From a virus: a stretch of DNA of 22,971 bases. The translations under genes were made by a program, and so were the position numbers. Below the pieces are notes generated by a model. It was not told where the DNA came from and searched no databases. It saw nothing but the letters and a program-made list of their open reading frames with translations. The stretch is taken from positions 1 through 22,971 of the IMG/VR virus record IMGVR_UViG_3300001533_000857. One strand, given 5' to 3'. Positions 1 through 6,784 of this stretch are shown here, piece by piece (within the stretch, counting starts at the first letter, position 1; each line of letters starts with the position of its first letter).

Positions 1-33
1 GCTGATGAACAGCGCAAAAAGGCAAAGGCATGA
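1..33 (+). CDS. 3' end of an upstream gene (probably small terminase), partial
   Basis: An open frame enters from the left edge and reads ADEQRKKAKA before a TGA at 31-33. Only ten residues are visible, a hydrophilic, lysine-rich C-terminus. It overlaps the terminase start by 4 bp (ATGA), which indicates translational coupling. Small terminase subunits usually lie directly upstream of the large subunit and often end in a basic tail, so that is the likeliest identity, but this is inferred from position only. Confidence 0.5.
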   Translation, partial: ADEQRKKAKA

Positions 34-1670
34 CAACGTTAACAGCGCTTAAAGATGAGGATATATTACTTGCCAATCAATTCTATCAGGAAAACCCGCA
101 CACATACGCAACGGATTTGTTTGCCGTTCCGATTTTAGAGGATATACAAGCGGACGTTTATGAGGATTTTTTTAAGCACAGGAAGTTTGCTTTATGCACA
201 CATCATGCTTTTGGTAAAGATTTACTTGCCGCGATGTTTTCTTTAACGCTCACTAATTTGAACCAAAATGAATGTGAGGGAACCGTATTAGGTCCGACAT
301 TCCCGCAGGTCCGCGATATTCATTTTAAGGAACTCGGCGCGATACTTGATAACACAAACCAGGAACGGACTATAATCCCCGGCAAGTTAACCACATCGCC
401 TTTAATGTATAAAATAAACCGTAAATGTTTTGTAGTGGGGAAGAGCCCAAAACAAAGCGCAAAAGGCGCTCCGACACCACAGTTATTATCCGGGTTTCAC
501 TCTTTAAATAAATTTGTAATCGTAACGGAAGCGTCAGCGGTGAGCGACCAAGTCATGGAACAGATTGAGGGTATAACCAACACCGCCGGGAATGTATGGA
601 TAGAATCCCCGAACATGGTTATAAACGGGTTAATCGATATGGAATCAATACGCAGGGAAGGGGAAAAGATAAAAGACCTTGCCCCTGAAATACAGGTTGA
701 ATATTTCGCGAACAAACACTATGAAATTAAAAACCCGCATTTGTTATCCCCGGGTTGGGTGATAGAAAAATATTTATCATGGGGTGAAAGCCCATTGTTT
801 CGGTCAAAAGTAATCGGTGAATGGGTTGAAGACAGTAACAATCAGTGGGTATCATTAGAGCGTATGGATGAATTGATGATGGGCCGGGTAAAGGGTGTAT
901 GGCAGTCAGAGGACGCGGGATATGCGCGATATAACGGGATACGGACAATCGGCGTGGGGATTGACTGTGCGCGGGAAGGGTCGGATGATACTGTTGTGTC
1001 ATCGTTTGAGGGCAACCGCGAATTTAAGCCCGCCCATGTTTTTGATAAGACTTACAAACAGACTGACAAAGGCAAAAAGTTTGTAGAGGACAGCCGATTT
1101 ATCGGTAAGTGGGTAATTGATAATTATGTCATACCGCATTTTGACCGCATTATGGTTATATCGATTGACATGACAGGCGGTTATGGTGTAGGCATATACG
1201 ATTATTTAACCAATCATCCGGCAGTTAAAAACAGCAAGTTTGCTCATGTTGTCGGGGTTAAATTTAACCAATTGTCAACGGTATCCGCACGCGGGTTAAA
1301 AGACAAGCACGGCAAGCCCATGATGTTATACCCCGATATGGCAACGCAGATGATTGCGCAGATATCACATCAGATAAACAGCGATGACGGCATATTATTT
1401 TTCGATGACGATGATTTTAAAAATGAAATAACAAACAGGGGAAAAGAACTTGACGGGGAAAGCAGGGAAAAGATTGAAAGCAAGAATACTTATAAGCAGC
1501 GGGCGGGTAAAAGCCCGGATAGAATGGACAGTAAATTACTTGCATGGCATGGGGTAATGTTAAAAACACGGAAAGCACAGGCGCGGCAAGTTGATACAAC
1601 GATTGAAAAAAAAGGCGGTTCCGCTATAACGTCAATGGCGGGTACGATTGACGGCGAGGATGATTATTAA
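30..1670 (+). CDS. terL: Terminase large subunit (ATPase-nuclease packaging motor)
   Basis: 546 aa, a normal length for a large terminase, which cuts concatemeric DNA and drives it into the prohead through the portal. The C-terminal RNase H-like nuclease is clear: GVGIDCAREGSDDT (D312), VISIDMTGG (D380) and SPDRMDSKLLA (D497, D500) supply the metal-binding acidic residues. The N-terminal ATPase is recognisable by layout but deviant. The Walker A position reads THHAFGKD (57-64), with Asp where Ser/Thr normally binds Mg, and the Walker B position reads FVIVTEAS (162-169), with Thr in place of the usual Asp before the catalytic Glu167. The start is set by the ATGA overlap with the preceding gene. 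It abuts the portal gene with a 1-bp overlap. The family call is firm; whether the ATPase works in the usual way is open. Confidence 0.9.
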   Translation: MTTLTALKDEDILLANQFYQENPHTYATDLFAVPILEDIQADVYEDFFKHRKFALCTHHAFGKDLLAAMFSLTLTNLNQNECEGTVLGPTFPQVRDIHFKELGAILDNTNQERTIIPGKLTTSPLMYKINRKCFVVGKSPKQSAKGAPTPQLLSGFHSLNKFVIVTEASAVSDQVMEQIEGITNTAGNVWIESPNMVINGLIDMESIRREGEKIKDLAPEIQVEYFANKHYEIKNPHLLSPGWVIEKYLSWGESPLFRSKVIGEWVEDSNNQWVSLERMDELMMGRVKGVWQSEDAGYARYNGIRTIGVGIDCAREGSDDTVVSSFEGNREFKPAHVFDKTYKQTDKGKKFVEDSRFIGKWVIDNYVIPHFDRIMVISIDMTGGYGVGIYDYLTNHPAVKNSKFAHVVGVKFNQLSTVSARGLKDKHGKPMMLYPDMATQMIAQISHQINSDDGILFFDDDDFKNEITNRGKELDGESREKIESKNTYKQRAGKSPDRMDSKLLAWHGVMLKTRKAQARQVDTTIEKKGGSAITSMAGTIDGEDDY

Positions 1671-3934
1671 TGGCTGATAAAAATTTAAAGGGCAAGGCAA
1701 AGCGGCCTATTGGGTCAGCAGGCACATCGTTAGCATCGGGGTATATGCAAGAGGAACATATAGCATCTTTGCAGGGAACGCAGAAAAGCATTTTATACGA
1801 CGAGATGAGGCGGACAAGCGACACGGTCGGCACAATGGAGCGGGCGCTTAAAAACCCGGCCCGGCAGGCGACATATAAAGTTGAGCCGGGATTGAAGGGC
1901 GATAAACTGTCCGAAGAGCAAGCGCAGTTTTTTAATTGGTTATTTTTTGACGGGGAAGTCATGCAGAAAAGTTTCACGGGGTATGTTACGGACTTTTTAA
2001 CTATATTAAACCACGGGTTTTATATCGGCGCGCCCACGATTGAGGCGGTTGAACACCCGAAGTTGGGGTGGAAGTGGGGATTGACCGACATTGATTTTCG
2101 TTCACAAAAAACAATTGAACGGTGGAATATTGACAAAAAAACCGGCAAACTCAAATCCGTTTATCAAAACTGCACAGGTACGGATTTTGATTTTCAGGGT
2201 AATATTCCTGTTGAAGATTTGGAAATTTTATCGCTTGACATGGAAGGCAAAAACTGGGAAGGGAAAAGCATATACCGGAATAGTATCGGGTTATATAAGG
2301 CGATAAAATTAATTGATAAGATAAGCATAGCAGGGTTTGAGCGGTCGGCGCTTGGCATACCGCATATCAAAATGTCGCGTGATTATGAAACAAACGAAAT
2401 AGAAAAAGCCGCATTGATTGCCGCAGTTAAAGGATTACAGGCGCATAAAACCTGTTATATCCTCACTTACGATGACATAAATATTGATATGTTAAAAATT
2501 GATTTTGATGCTGAAAAGGCAGACAAGATGATTGACAAACGGTCAACGCGAATGTTAATGACAATTTTAGCGGATTTTTTAATGCTTGGACACACGAACT
2601 CCGGCAGTTGGGCAATGCACAACGGGAAAAAATCAATGTTTTTAATGTCGCTGATTTATTACATAAACATTTATGTGTCCATGCTTGACCGGCTCATGAA
2701 GAGAATAACAATTATGAATTGGGGAACTATGGAATATTACCCGTATTTTAGTGTTACGGGGGTTAAAGAAGAGTCGCTAAAAGCAGAGGCAGAAGTTGCG
2801 GGGTTGTTAGTTGAAAAAGGAATAATAAGCAAAGGGCAGTCATTGGAAGACTTTTTCCGCCAGCGCGCGAATTACCCTGAAATGACAGAAGAGGAAAAAG
2901 AGGCAAAGGAAGCCGGCAAGGAAGCGATAAAAAACATGATAAATAAACCTGCGGGCGATGATGACAAAACAAACAAGGTTGACGATGATGACAAGCAGAC
3001 CGTAACTGATGATAATAAAAAGGACGCGGGAAAAGAAGCGAATACCCCGGAAGATAAGCGGCAGAAAATGGCAGAGGAAAAACGCTTTTACCGTCCGTTA
3101 ACCAAGTATGAGGAAAAAGCGGATTTTACGAAAATCGATAACGATTTTACCGTTAGCATTGTGGACTGGAACACGAATGTTAAAAACGGGTTAGCGAAGA
3201 TAATTGAAAAGCATACGATTGATATGCGAAACGCGTTAAAAAGCGGCGGCAATCCTTACAAAGTTGTTGAAAGCATTGAAATATCAAGCGGTGTAAAAGA
3301 CTTTCAACGTGAAGTTTTGGAAAATATAAAAGGCATGGTTAAGACGGGCAAACGGCAAGCGGCAAAAGAACTTGACAAAAAGAAGTTTGCCGATGATGTT
3401 TTTGGCCCGGGAATATATACATGGATTGGTATTACAGCAAAAAACTTTACCAAAGGGAAAGTCAATGACCTTGACAAACTGATGACAGGCGCGGCAATAA
3501 ACAAACTTAACACATTACAGGGGAAAAAGATAAAAGACAGCGATATTAATTTTATCGTGGCGGCATCGCAGACAACCGCGCTTAATTATGTTAACAACGA
3601 AAATAATCTTGGCGGGAATTTAATTACTGAACAGGCCATTAATGGCGGGCGTAAAGATACTTACTTACAAAACGATGATGTTATAGGGTTTCAGTATTCC
3701 GCGATATTGGATGATAGGACAACGGAAATTTGTCAGGAACTTGACGGACGGACGCGGGAAGTTGATGACTTTCAGAGCGCTGATTCAGACCCTCCGAACC
3801 ATTTCGGTTGCAGGAGTGTTTTAATTCCTATTTTAGCAAGTGAAGGCGCGCCTGAATGGACTGGGTTTTTAGGTGTGAGCAGTAACGCGGCGACTGTAAA
3901 ACAATTCAAGGAGGCTTGTTATGCTATTGTTTAG
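1670..3934 (+). CDS. Portal protein fused to MuF/SPP1-gp7-like minor head protein
   Basis: 754 aa, longer than a lone portal. Residues ~1-410 look like a DUF935/Mu gp29-type portal, including the IERWNIDKKTGKLKSVYQ strand and the segment around SIYRNSIGLYKAIKLIDK. An acidic, low-complexity linker (~415-470, rich in D, K and E, with DDDDK) follows. Residues ~490-754 form a second domain ending in the hallmark of MuF/SPP1 gp7 proteins: ILDDRTTEICQELDGRT (C688) followed by PPNHFGCRS (H711, C714), a probable metal-binding Cys/His set. The portal is the dodecameric gateway for DNA; MuF-type proteins enter the head and act in assembly or ejection. In most phages these are two adjacent genes. The reading frame is continuous with no internal stop. 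The precise portal family is less certain than the MuF domain. Confidence 0.85.
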   Translation: MADKNLKGKAKRPIGSAGTSLASGYMQEEHIASLQGTQKSILYDEMRRTSDTVGTMERALKNPARQATYKVEPGLKGDKLSEEQAQFFNWLFFDGEVMQKSFTGYVTDFLTILNHGFYIGAPTIEAVEHPKLGWKWGLTDIDFRSQKTIERWNIDKKTGKLKSVYQNCTGTDFDFQGNIPVEDLEILSLDMEGKNWEGKSIYRNSIGLYKAIKLIDKISIAGFERSALGIPHIKMSRDYETNEIEKAALIAAVKGLQAHKTCYILTYDDINIDMLKIDFDAEKADKMIDKRSTRMLMTILADFLMLGHTNSGSWAMHNGKKSMFLMSLIYYINIYVSMLDRLMKRITIMNWGTMEYYPYFSVTGVKEESLKAEAEVAGLLVEKGIISKGQSLEDFFRQRANYPEMTEEEKEAKEAGKEAIKNMINKPAGDDDKTNKVDDDDKQTVTDDNKKDAGKEANTPEDKRQKMAEEKRFYRPLTKYEEKADFTKIDNDFTVSIVDWNTNVKNGLAKIIEKHTIDMRNALKSGGNPYKVVESIEISSGVKDFQREVLENIKGMVKTGKRQAAKELDKKKFADDVFGPGIYTWIGITAKNFTKGKVNDLDKLMTGAAINKLNTLQGKKIKDSDINFIVAASQTTALNYVNNENNLGGNLITEQAINGGRKDTYLQNDDVIGFQYSAILDDRTTEICQELDGRTREVDDFQSADSDPPNHFGCRSVLIPILASEGAPEWTGFLGVSSNAATVKQFKEACYAIV

Positions 3935-4070
3935 CGATTGGAAAACACGGGTGAGGCTTGGCAAAAGCATATCAATTCCAATGAGTTTTTTTGCCGATAT
4001 TATCGCTCATCAAATGGGCGCAAAACGAAAATGGAAGGTGAACAAACATGCCGGGAATAGACTCCACTGA
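3921..4070 (+). CDS. Small 49-aa protein of unknown function
   Basis: A short ORF beginning MLLFSDWKTRVRLGKS and ending NKHAGNRLH. It overlaps the portal end by 14 bp and the protease start by 23 bp. Support comes from a strong ribosome site: AAGGAGG lies about 8 bp before the ATG at 3921, inside the 3' end of the portal gene. The protein is basic, with a short hydrophobic centre (SISIPMSFFADIIA) that could be a weak amphipathic helix. I do not recognise a family. It may be a small head-module protein, or its translation may serve to couple the portal and protease genes. Confidence 0.55.
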   Translation: MLLFSDWKTRVRLGKSISIPMSFFADIIAHQMGAKRKWKVNKHAGNRLH

Positions 4071-5421
4071 TAATGTGTTTCGCGTAAGGCAAAAGGATTA
4101 CAAATTAGATGATTATAAAAGCATAGCGACAATAACGCTTACAAACGGGATACAGCAAGTAACGGGATATAAAGACAACGGCGAGGAAGTGTTATCATTG
4201 ATTTTTGCCAAAAACAAATACAAAAAAGCCGAGGATGTTAAGCAGTGGATTGATAAGCATGATAAATATCGTTATAACGCGGTTAACGAATTGACCGCGG
4301 CGGCTTTTTATGATGAGTTTGCGAATACCGAATTTGTTGAAATGTATGAACTGCCGGTTGAATTGTTTGAGGAAATAAACCCCGACGATTGGTTATTTAT
4401 CTGCCGGGAGTTTGACCTTGACGGACGCGGAACTGTAACGAAAGCAGACCTCGAGGAAATGAAAACGAATTATGAAAATAATGTGCGCGGTATTAAACTC
4501 GACATTGACTATGACCACAAGAAACGGCGCGATGACGCGGCCGGGTGGTATGGTGATATGAAAATAGAAAAGATGAGCCTGCAAGACGGGCGCGAGGTAT
4601 GGGCGCTGTTTACGAAACCAGAGTGGACAGCAGAGGCCCGGAAAGCGCTTACAGAAAAGTCTTACAGGTATTTCAGCCCTGAAATTGGTTTTAAGTATTA
4701 TGACAACGAAAAAAAGAAATGGTTTAAGAATGTTTTATTTGGCGGCGGACTGACAAATAGGCCCGAAATTAAGGGACAGCCCCTTATTGGCATGGCCGCG
4801 GCCGAAGAGGACAACAAACAAACACAGGAGGTCAAGATGAAACTTTCAGAACTGTTCAAAAAGATTGGCGTGTCATTTTCTGAAAATGATGATGATAATG
4901 TTTCGGCATTGTCAACAAAGTTTGAAGACATGACAAAAGCGATTGAAAAAAAGGACTCTGACATTAAAGAACTGTCGGAGAATATAGAAAAACTAAACGG
5001 CGAGAAGGACGAGGCTGAAAAAGCCAAAACCAAACTTGCCGAAAAGGTCGGGAAAATGGAAGAGGACGAGAAAAAAAGGGTTGAAGCGGAAAAAGTAATC
5101 AAGGCAAATGAACTTTGCAAAAAGGCGATAAAAGAAGAAAAGGTTACTCCCGCGGACGCGAACTATCAGGAAAGTAAAGGGTGGTTTTTTGAGATGTTTA
5201 AAGACAGCGCCGCCGCCGGCGAGAAGTATCTTGAATCTATGCCGAAACTGACAAAAAAGGCCGCGGGTTCAAGTGCGGACGCTGACTTGTCAGATGAGGA
5301 CAAAAGATTTGAAGGCATAAAGGCGCTTGCGGAAAAGAAAATGGAAGCCGATAAAAACCTGTCATTTGACGAGGCTTTTAAATCGGCATCCACAGAATAC
5401 ACAGAAGGGGGTAATGACTAA
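4048..5421 (+). CDS. Mu gpI-type prohead protease with C-terminal scaffold domain
   Basis: 457 aa. The N-terminal ~260 residues match the Mu-like prophage I protease family: the DLDGRGTVTKADL segment (the family's DGRG region), a likely catalytic His157 in DIDYDHKKRRDDAAGWYG, Ser210 in YRYFSPE, and LTNRPEIKGQP (235-245). This enzyme processes scaffold and capsid proteins during prohead maturation. Residues ~264-457 are charged and mostly coiled-coil, as expected of a scaffold. The start at 4048 has a GGAAGGTG site about 8 bp upstream. The gene ends in a TAATG overlap with the next. The two-part plan, protease then scaffold, matches Mu genes I and Z and lambda C/Nu3, and an internal start is present (separate entry). 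Confidence 0.88.
   Translation: MPGIDSTDNVFRVRQKDYKLDDYKSIATITLTNGIQQVTGYKDNGEEVLSLIFAKNKYKKAEDVKQWIDKHDKYRYNAVNELTAAAFYDEFANTEFVEMYELPVELFEEINPDDWLFICREFDLDGRGTVTKADLEEMKTNYENNVRGIKLDIDYDHKKRRDDAAGWYGDMKIEKMSLQDGREVWALFTKPEWTAEARKALTEKSYRYFSPEIGFKYYDNEKKKWFKNVLFGGGLTNRPEIKGQPLIGMAAAEEDNKQTQEVKMKLSELFKKIGVSFSENDDDNVSALSTKFEDMTKAIEKKDSDIKELSENIEKLNGEKDEAEKAKTKLAEKVGKMEEDEKKRVEAEKVIKANELCKKAIKEEKVTPADANYQESKGWFFEMFKDSAAAGEKYLESMPKLTKKAAGSSADADLSDEDKRFEGIKALAEKKMEADKNLSFDEAFKSASTEYTEGGND
4837..5421 (+). CDS. Nested scaffold protein from an in-frame internal start (Mu gpZ-like)
   Basis: Inside the protease gene, AGGAGGT (4826-4832) sits 5 bp before an in-frame ATG (4837; codon 264). This would yield a 194-aa protein beginning MKLSELFKKIGVSF. 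It contains a long charged coiled coil (~residues 30-100, rich in E, K, D and A) and an acidic C-terminal part. The position falls exactly at the change from protease domain to scaffold domain. In Mu, gpZ is the scaffold encoded as the C-terminal part of gene I, and lambda Nu3 is similar within C. The product would line the prohead interior and be cleaved by the protease. The ribosome site is as strong as those of genuine genes here, so an independently made scaffold is likely, though expression is inferred. Confidence 0.8.
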   Translation: MKLSELFKKIGVSFSENDDDNVSALSTKFEDMTKAIEKKDSDIKELSENIEKLNGEKDEAEKAKTKLAEKVGKMEEDEKKRVEAEKVIKANELCKKAIKEEKVTPADANYQESKGWFFEMFKDSAAAGEKYLESMPKLTKKAAGSSADADLSDEDKRFEGIKALAEKKMEADKNLSFDEAFKSASTEYTEGGND

Positions 5422-5795
5422 TGGGAAGCATGAACGGAACACCGACAACTGAAGCATTTGTGGCTGAAGCCACGATAGTGCAGTATACCATTGTTAAGAT
5501 GGGAACTACTGACAGTCAGGTAACAACTTGCGGAGATGATGAGCGCGGGATTGGCGTTGCTATGAATGGCGGCGCGGCTGGGGCGACAATTGATGTTGTA
5601 ACCAAAGGCACGGCAAAAGGAATTGCAAACGCCGAACTTGCCACACTTAACGCGTCAATTGTATCCGAGGCAAACGGACTTGCTGGCGCTGCTGACACTA
5701 ACAACCAGCACTGTATCGGGTATACCCGCGAACTTGCAAGCGCGCAGGGCGATGTAATTGTAATCGATGTTGATATGCATGTTTACGGTGCATAA
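5421..5795 (+). CDS. Capsid decoration-type protein
   Basis: 124 aa, small-residue rich (Gly, Ala, Thr, Val), starting MGSMNGTPTTEAF. The pattern ERGIGVAMNGGAAGATIDVVTKGTAKGIA followed by CIGYTRELASAQGDVIVIDV resembles the beta-rich capsid decoration/head-stabilising proteins (DUF2190-like) that sit between protease/scaffold and capsid genes in many phages. Such proteins bind the outside of the expanded capsid. The start overlaps the protease stop by one base (TAATG), with a G-rich site just upstream; an in-frame ATG at 5430 is an alternative. A 29-bp gap then leads to the capsid gene. Family assignment rests on composition, repeat-like strand pattern and position. Confidence 0.65.
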   Translation: MGSMNGTPTTEAFVAEATIVQYTIVKMGTTDSQVTTCGDDERGIGVAMNGGAAGATIDVVTKGTAKGIANAELATLNASIVSEANGLAGAADTNNQHCIGYTRELASAQGDVIVIDVDMHVYGA

Positions 5796-5824
5796 AAAAA
5801 TAATTAAAAAGGAGGATAAGGAAA

Positions 5825-6784
5825 ATGAATAAAACAGCATCAACAAGAAATGACCCCGTTCTTACGCAGATAATGCTCGGGTCTATGAATCAGTCAGACC
5901 AGTTTATCGCTGACAGGATTTACAAGAGCATTGCCGTGCAGAAAAAGACAGGGGATATAAGGACGTTTGGAAGCACATCGCAGCGTATAGTTAATACTAT
6001 ACAGGGCAGCGGGGAAAGCAAGACCCTGACATTTGAAGTAACGAAAGCCGACGCGTGGAGTCTAAAAAAACACTCGCTGAAAGCATTGATTACCGATGAT
6101 GACATGGACCAGCTCGGAACGCAGGAAGCAAAAAATATCGGTATTGATGCAGTTACCGAAGCGCTTTTACTTGCCCGCGAGTATGCCGTTGCTAATTACA
6201 TGACAGACACTGACAATTACACTAACGATGTAACGCTGTCAGGAACAGAGCAGTGGGACGATTACACAAGCTCCGACCCGATTGATGACCTCATCACGGC
6301 GAGGGCAACGGTGCGCGAGGCTTGTGGCAAAAGGCCGAACATGGCAATAATGGGGCCGGAAGTGTTTGATTGCTTAATCAATCATCCGGACTTACTTACT
6401 GCCGCACGGTATGCAGGCGAGGATACAGTATCTTTCAGCAGGCTGAAAAGAATATTGTTCCCAGGCCAGCCGGAAAGCAAGGTTGAAGTGCTTGTAGGTG
6501 AAGCCAGGTATGAAAGCGCGAAAGAAGGCGCGGCATCCTCAATGGCAGACCTCTGGGGAAACAACTTTATTTATCTGTATGTTGACTCTGCACCGAACCC
6601 GCGCAAACCGCAGTCAACATGGGGCGCGAAGTTTCACCGCGGCAAAGCTGACATTGCCGTTAAGACATGGACAACCCCTGACATCGACCCGTCAACGTGG
6701 GAAAAAGGCGAGTGGGAATATGATGACGTTGTATTAAGTGAAATATGCGGCTATCTGATAAAGAACGCCCGTGCGGCTATCTGA
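5825..6784 (+). CDS. Major capsid protein (HK97-fold expected)
   Basis: 319 aa with a strong AAGGAGGAT site upstream. Position after protease/scaffold and decoration genes, length, and internal pattern all fit a major capsid protein. Residues ~85-120 form the helix-rich ALITDDDMDQLG...AVTEALLLAREY section, then come SSDPIDDLITARATVRE and RPNMAIMGPEVFDCLINHPDLL, typical of the spine helix and P-domain of HK97-like capsids. No N-terminal delta domain is evident, consistent with the separate scaffold. Codons are shifted toward CTG and GAC compared with flanking genes, as expected for high expression. The last residues (ARAAI) and stop result from a 26-bp tandem duplication (separate entry). The exact capsid family is not identified. 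Confidence 0.85.
   Translation: MNKTASTRNDPVLTQIMLGSMNQSDQFIADRIYKSIAVQKKTGDIRTFGSTSQRIVNTIQGSGESKTLTFEVTKADAWSLKKHSLKALITDDDMDQLGTQEAKNIGIDAVTEALLLAREYAVANYMTDTDNYTNDVTLSGTEQWDDYTSSDPIDDLITARATVREACGKRPNMAIMGPEVFDCLINHPDLLTAARYAGEDTVSFSRLKRILFPGQPESKVEVLVGEARYESAKEGAASSMADLWGNNFIYLYVDSAPNPRKPQSTWGAKFHRGKADIAVKTWTTPDIDPSTWEKGEWEYDDVVLSEICGYLIKNARAAI

Follow-up and report, generated by a model that had tools for sequence, protein, structure and literature searches.

Phage large terminases with an apparent reciprocal exchange of carboxylate and hydroxyl residues at the Mg-ATP site

The window, the whole stretch of 22,971 nucleotides of viral DNA analysed here, encodes an ordinary terminase large subunit (TerL) with a new variant of the ATP site. 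The Ser or Thr that normally follows the P-loop Lys (position K+1) is replaced by Asp64, and the first Asp of Walker B by Thr166. Homologous sequences and a structural model together make it fairly probable that this is a functional tailed-phage TerL in which a hydroxyl and a carboxylate are swapped reciprocally around Mg-ATP. Homologues carrying the same pair, and others carrying half-way combinations, indicate that the two changes represent a reciprocal Asp/Thr exchange with natural intermediates, not two unrelated losses.

The gene lies at 30..1670 on the + strand and its product of 546 residues is identified as a phage TerL by its homologues, by a match to phrog_5902 (E 3e-6) and by an AlphaFold model. 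Searches with tblastn found, besides other terminases, those of phiCD27 and phiEf11, which are about 20-25% identical along some 90% of the length; the match to phiCD27 terminase B has an E-value of 5e-13 and covers 90% of the window TerL. Many TerL loci from viral contigs match it over most of the length. Pfam and NCBIfam models gave no match to this protein, nor did Pfam models to the TerL of a homologous contig, L037, and degenerate scans with the single sequences of the window TerL and its major head protein returned no close relatives. The window TerL forms a long branch, with 2-2.8 changes per site, and its placement in trees is unsure. The AlphaFold model, built from 60 homologues (mean pLDDT 80.9) and compared with PDB structures, has an N-terminal ASCE P-loop ATPase domain with a catalytic Glu, followed by a C-terminal RNase H-like nuclease domain. 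It superimposes on the ATPase domain of P74-26 TerL (Z 20.1, rmsd 3.0, 222 residues) and on the nuclease domains of E217 TerL (Z 21.0, rmsd 3.7, 218 residues) and Sf6 gp2 (Z about 21); the folds are alike at sequence identities of about 11-18%.

The neighbouring genes are those expected beside a TerL. Directly after it comes a single ORF of 754 residues in which a Portal_Mu portal is fused to a Mu F/SPP1 gp7-type minor head protein (1670..3934, + strand; PF06074 E 1.3e-10, PF04233 E 2.9e-8, TIGR01641), then a Mu I-like head protease/scaffold (4048..5421, + strand; PF10123 E 6e-26) and the major head protein (5825..6784, + strand; phrog_1005 E 1.5e-54). Mu gp36-like and neck genes also follow in the window. 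In the window and at loci L098, L037 and L331, portal and other head genes come after the TerL with the swapped pair; the TerL of L098 is less divergent than that of the window.

The P-loop, THHAFGKD, occupies residues 57-64 (198..221, + strand) and aligns to SGHGVGK[ST] of canonical homologues; Walker B, FVIVTEAS, occupies residues 162-169 (513..536, + strand) and aligns to VVDEAS, with Glu167 as the catalytic Glu. Two alignments place GKD in the GK[ST] column and TEA in the DEA column. The protein thus lacks the GK[ST] that canonically ends a P-loop, and its Walker B begins with neither Asp nor Glu, as the original prediction had proposed from this sequence by itself; the interval it gave, 180-530, ends within the second motif. 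In the AlphaFold model residues 57-62 form a loop that joins a strand (52-56) to a helix (63-77), which identifies the P-loop and puts Asp64 in it, while Thr166 and Glu167 come directly after strand 160-165, where the Walker B strand ends. The alignments and the predicted fold agree on residues 57-64, and the idea that the true P-loop lies elsewhere is thereby set aside. The nuclease acids, also said to be intact, are so by conservation: Asp312 (963..965, + strand) and Asp380 (1167..1169, + strand) are invariant both in alignment A1 and in the 60-sequence alignment A5, and in the DRMD of SPDRMD (1518..1529, + strand) Asp497 is invariant in A1 and at least 90% conserved in A5, with Asp500 at least 90% conserved in both.

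One parallel drawn earlier, with lambda gpA, does not apply. In deviant P-loops of the lambda type the Lys is displaced and stands first in the motif, while Lys63 of the window TerL remains at the normal GK position, aligned with the GK of its homologues, and the residue after it alone is changed. Among the closest comparisons are TerLs of the phiCD27/phiEf11/vir525 type (phrog_5902, related to phrog_2), which share the two-domain layout, the order of motifs and the nuclease residues but read S[GC][HQ]GVGK[ST] and VDEA where the window TerL reads THHAFGKD and VTEAS. In Sf6 the P-loop has GKS and Walker B has EE, where the window TerL has GKD and TE. A third motif, GPT at residues 88-90 (291..299, + strand), is APT in most canonical homologues. 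GPT is present in most members that combine GKD with TEA (written GKD/TEA below), with APT in L108, L115, L190, L277 and L344; APT is found in most members with GKS or GKT and in those listed with GKG/DEA and GKD/DEA. At locus L057 (4678-7299) a GKD/TEA TerL is interrupted inside this motif, at GP|T, by a LAGLIDADG intein of about 336 residues.

Homologues were collected without regard to these motifs, by scanning viral and bacterial contigs, as well as phage records, with alignments. Among 241 distinct homologues both positions are readable in 233 or 234, the query included, and 6 or 7 others lack one of the positions. A single GKA sequence (L011) was rejected as a P-loop variant and set aside from the counts, its Ala being the junction of an intein-like insertion directly after the P-loop GK. 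For K+1 and Walker B respectively, the remaining 233 comprise Thr/Asp 89, Ser/Asp 78, Thr/Glu 7, Gly/Asp 13, Asp/Asp 11, Asp/Thr 33 and Asp/Ser 2. Walker B begins with Asp or Glu in all 174 homologues with GK[ST] and with Asp in all 13 with GKG; where the P-loop ends in GKD (46 sequences), it begins with Thr or Ser in 35, counting the query, and with Asp in 11. The association is strong by Fisher's test (p = 2e-32), a value that ignores phylogeny and treats related sequences as independent. Within the initial motif-blind set, three loci (L037, L057 and L050, the last of them truncated) had GKD together with TEA, or TEA alone. Synonymous codons vary where the residues are kept, with GAC or GAT for Asp at K+1 and ACA, ACC, ACG, ACT, TCC or TCG at Walker B. 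Because motif-blind homologues carry the same pair in differing synonymous codons, GKD/TEA is a real natural variant, not chance or error, and the double change is not confined to one sequence. The suggestion of a divergent motor, or of a subfamily with altered metal coordination, gains support from this recurrence. A strict one-to-one covariation, seen with 160 sequences, was dropped after wider sampling yielded GKD/DEA and GKG/DEA.

Similarity-based sampling is biased, and for this reason we also searched 2.9 million viral contigs in matched scans, using three DNA patterns that were alike except at the two codons. Since the patterns fix the Gly codon and restrict the residue after K+1, the numbers serve as comparisons and not as population frequencies: among in-frame ORFs of the query's TerL family, at least 81 had GKD with TEA, 33 had GKD with DEA and one had GK[ST] with TEA, and after re-scoring and removal of duplicates these became at least 60, 30 and no unique sequence. 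L433, the GK[ST]/TEA hit that resembled a relative, has GKT/TEA and was rejected as a member of this family, being a Terminase_6N protein of another branch.

A tree built without the K+1 and Walker B columns requires 10 changes involving Asp at K+1 and 7 involving Thr or Ser at Walker B, or 5 and 5 when unselected rows alone are used; an earlier tree had given 4 changes, at least 2 of them forced by well supported branches. Judged from these reconstructions, the same exchange arose more than once, apparently in steps. Plausible intermediates are the GKG/DEA sequences (13, from Chloroflexota) and the GKD/DEA sequences (11, plus 30 from the pattern scan). The distribution suggests a path in which the P-loop residue passes from Ser or Thr through Gly to Asp, and the Walker B Asp then becomes Thr or Ser; the codons of the first leg, AGY for Ser, GGY for Gly and GAY for Asp, would each lie one base apart. 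The reverse step, from GKD/TEA to GKD/DEA, seems to occur as well, because one GKD/DEA sequence (L222) is nested inside the GKD/TEA clade.

The main GKD/TEA clade is found in genomes of Chloroflexota (Dehalococcoidia/SAR202). Chloroflexota TerLs also include the group with a GKG P-loop (L189, L194, L217 and others), which has no hydroxyl at K+1 and a normal DEA; the L217 gene is followed by a portal gene. Some Dehalococcoidia chromosomes carry 5-6 TerL-like copies of the GKD type each, as in OY282442 (L178-L180, L183, L185) and OY282355 (L196, L212, L216, L221-L223). The neighbours of L178 and L212 are non-head genes, namely a topoisomerase, a DNA methyltransferase/HNH gene and an ORF resembling an elongation factor. 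These scattered copies may be dispersed or domesticated.

The GKD/TEA scan also returned two TerL families that have no pairwise similarity to the query. Members L301 and L331 of the first read RQ[TS]GKDF and VLLTEA[AD]FF, and their canonical relatives read ARQTGKT and LDEFAF; both hit Terminase_6N, with L331 scoring under the curated cut-off, and belong with the B3/Mu gp28-like terminases, a group represented by Alteromonadaceae phage B23, Pasteurella phage AFS-2018a and Pseudomonas phage B3. The isolates B23 and AFS-2018a have ARQTGKTF and LDEFAF. The P-loop of the B3 type in L357 (phage B3) and L360 reads SRQIGLSW, with no Lys at the canonical place. The second family, L273, reads SRQWGKDF and LFTEAAF, and its relative ARRFGKSF and ADEAGF. 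In a profile alignment across the families the GKD motifs coincide, as do the TEA motifs. Between the query and L331 BLASTP detects no similarity (E 0.45) and the match is one of profiles, at the level of the superfamily; the window TerL stands outside the B3/Mu gp28-like group. A single shared inheritance of GKD/TEA by the window TerL and L331 was considered, but the two lack pairwise similarity and the relatives of L331 are canonical. Because L301/L331 and L273 carry GKD/TEA while their relatives are canonical, the exchange has arisen in separate TerL families. Contig L331 (286-7160) and the window (30-6784) have in common the families of their portal (phrog_113) and major head protein (phrog_1005); their TerLs belong to different families and both are GKD/TEA. 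A search for an isolated phage with GKD/TEA found none: among the phage-collection records whose ATP-site motifs were read, not one has GKD, and the Salinibacter ruber phage examined has GKT/DEA.

A reverse scan found TEA together with canonical GKS or GKT in GpA-family terminases (PF05876; L374, L390, L394), and the Terminase_3/6N proteins L401 and L433 likewise have TEA with an ordinary GKS/T. These proteins rule out a strict restriction of TEA to GKD across all terminases. They indicate that in other families loss of the Walker B Asp does not depend on an Asp in the P-loop, and they weaken any strict model of compensation.

According to the main text of Kozlova et al. 2022 (PMC9599734), the K+1 Ser or Thr of P-loop NTPases coordinates Mg2+ and is linked by a short hydrogen bond to the Walker B Asp, and this pair, described as almost strictly conserved, has a central role in proton transfer; the exceptions named are nucleotide kinases, with Gly at K+1, and proteins whose Walker B has Glu. 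The window TerL differs at these same two positions beside Mg-ATP in having the residues exchanged, and a K+1 Asp combined with a Walker B Thr is not among the exceptions named there. No published description of GKD/TEA terminases was found in the open-access literature, to which the search was largely confined.

In the proposed mechanism, Asp64 would stand in for the hydroxyl that is normally a ligand of Mg2+, and Thr166 for the Asp that normally accepts a hydrogen bond from this hydroxyl and helps to hold the metal. The site keeps Lys63 and Glu167, and would still have a carboxylate opposite a hydroxyl. Most likely Asp64 would take over binding of Mg2+, reaching it from the P-loop with or without an intervening water, in a geometry that we infer, and with Thr166 as the hydroxyl partner ATP hydrolysis and DNA translocation would continue. 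An active motor is the simplest reading of the swapped TerLs, as far as sequences can speak to activity. Perhaps, and here we are more tentative, DNA-packaging motors have exchanged the catalytic pair of P-loop NTPases recurrently, with an Asp at K+1 that would bind Mg2+ and act as proton trap and a Thr or Ser at Walker B as its hydroxyl partner, a state reached several times from GK[ST]/DE through GKG/DE or GKD/DE to GKD/[TS]E.

The alternative that survives best, although we consider it unlikely, holds that there is no compensation: both positions would be loosely constrained, each change would have been tolerated separately, and their co-occurrence would reflect mainly shared descent. The commonness of GKD/DEA fits this explanation, and because of it an Asp at K+1 does not require a Thr at Walker B; the GKG/DEA proteins, which lack any hydroxyl, and the TEA found beside GKS/T in GpA, Terminase_3 and Terminase_6N proteins point the same way. 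A phylogenetic pair test, underpowered with just 4 independent pairs on starred branches (typically 3 concordant, none discordant and 1 uninformative), is not significant (p = 0.25), which also leaves room for this explanation. Against it, Walker B Thr or Ser occurs in 0 of 187 unselected family sequences with Ser, Thr or Gly at K+1, and the GKD/TEA pair recurs in separate TerL families. Rather improbable is an altered use of metal in place of a one-for-one swap, in which the P-loop Asp would raise the acidity of the site and adapt it to Mn2+, to some other metal or to a different resting state. It would be chemically plausible for a carboxylate to lie in the first metal shell, and GKD/DEA intermediates would place two carboxylates at the metal, but the swapped pair leaves the numbers of carboxylates and hydroxyls unchanged.

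That the ATPase is dead or vestigial, with another protein powering packaging, is very improbable. Two of the most conserved residues of the ATP site do depart from the canon, and the scattered TerL-like copies of some Dehalococcoidia chromosomes, some of them beside non-phage genes, would be compatible with such a loss; yet Lys63, Glu167, the remaining ATPase fold and the nuclease are conserved, many viral contigs keep the swapped motif with head genes nearby, and the sole other ATPase of the window (22195 onward), judged by eye from its sequence, is AAA/RecA-like and not of the packaging type. A sequencing error or decay of the gene in one contig, which the lack of a close relative in scans might suggest, has a negligible chance given the open frame of 546 codons, the conservation of the nuclease and the recurrence of both changes in unrelated contigs.

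The exchange carries a warning for annotation: filters that demand GK[ST] or DE would miss such TerLs or mislabel them as inactive. Since DNA packaging by terminases is fast and works against high force, a slow side reaction would be insufficient for these motors. The swapped (GKD/TE), two-carboxylate (GKD/DE) and no-hydroxyl (GKG/DE) forms may serve as natural test cases for the role of each position, and the swapped motors would bear on the theory, set out in the main text of PMC9599734, that a proton shared between the Walker A Ser/Thr and the Walker B Asp is the core of catalysis.
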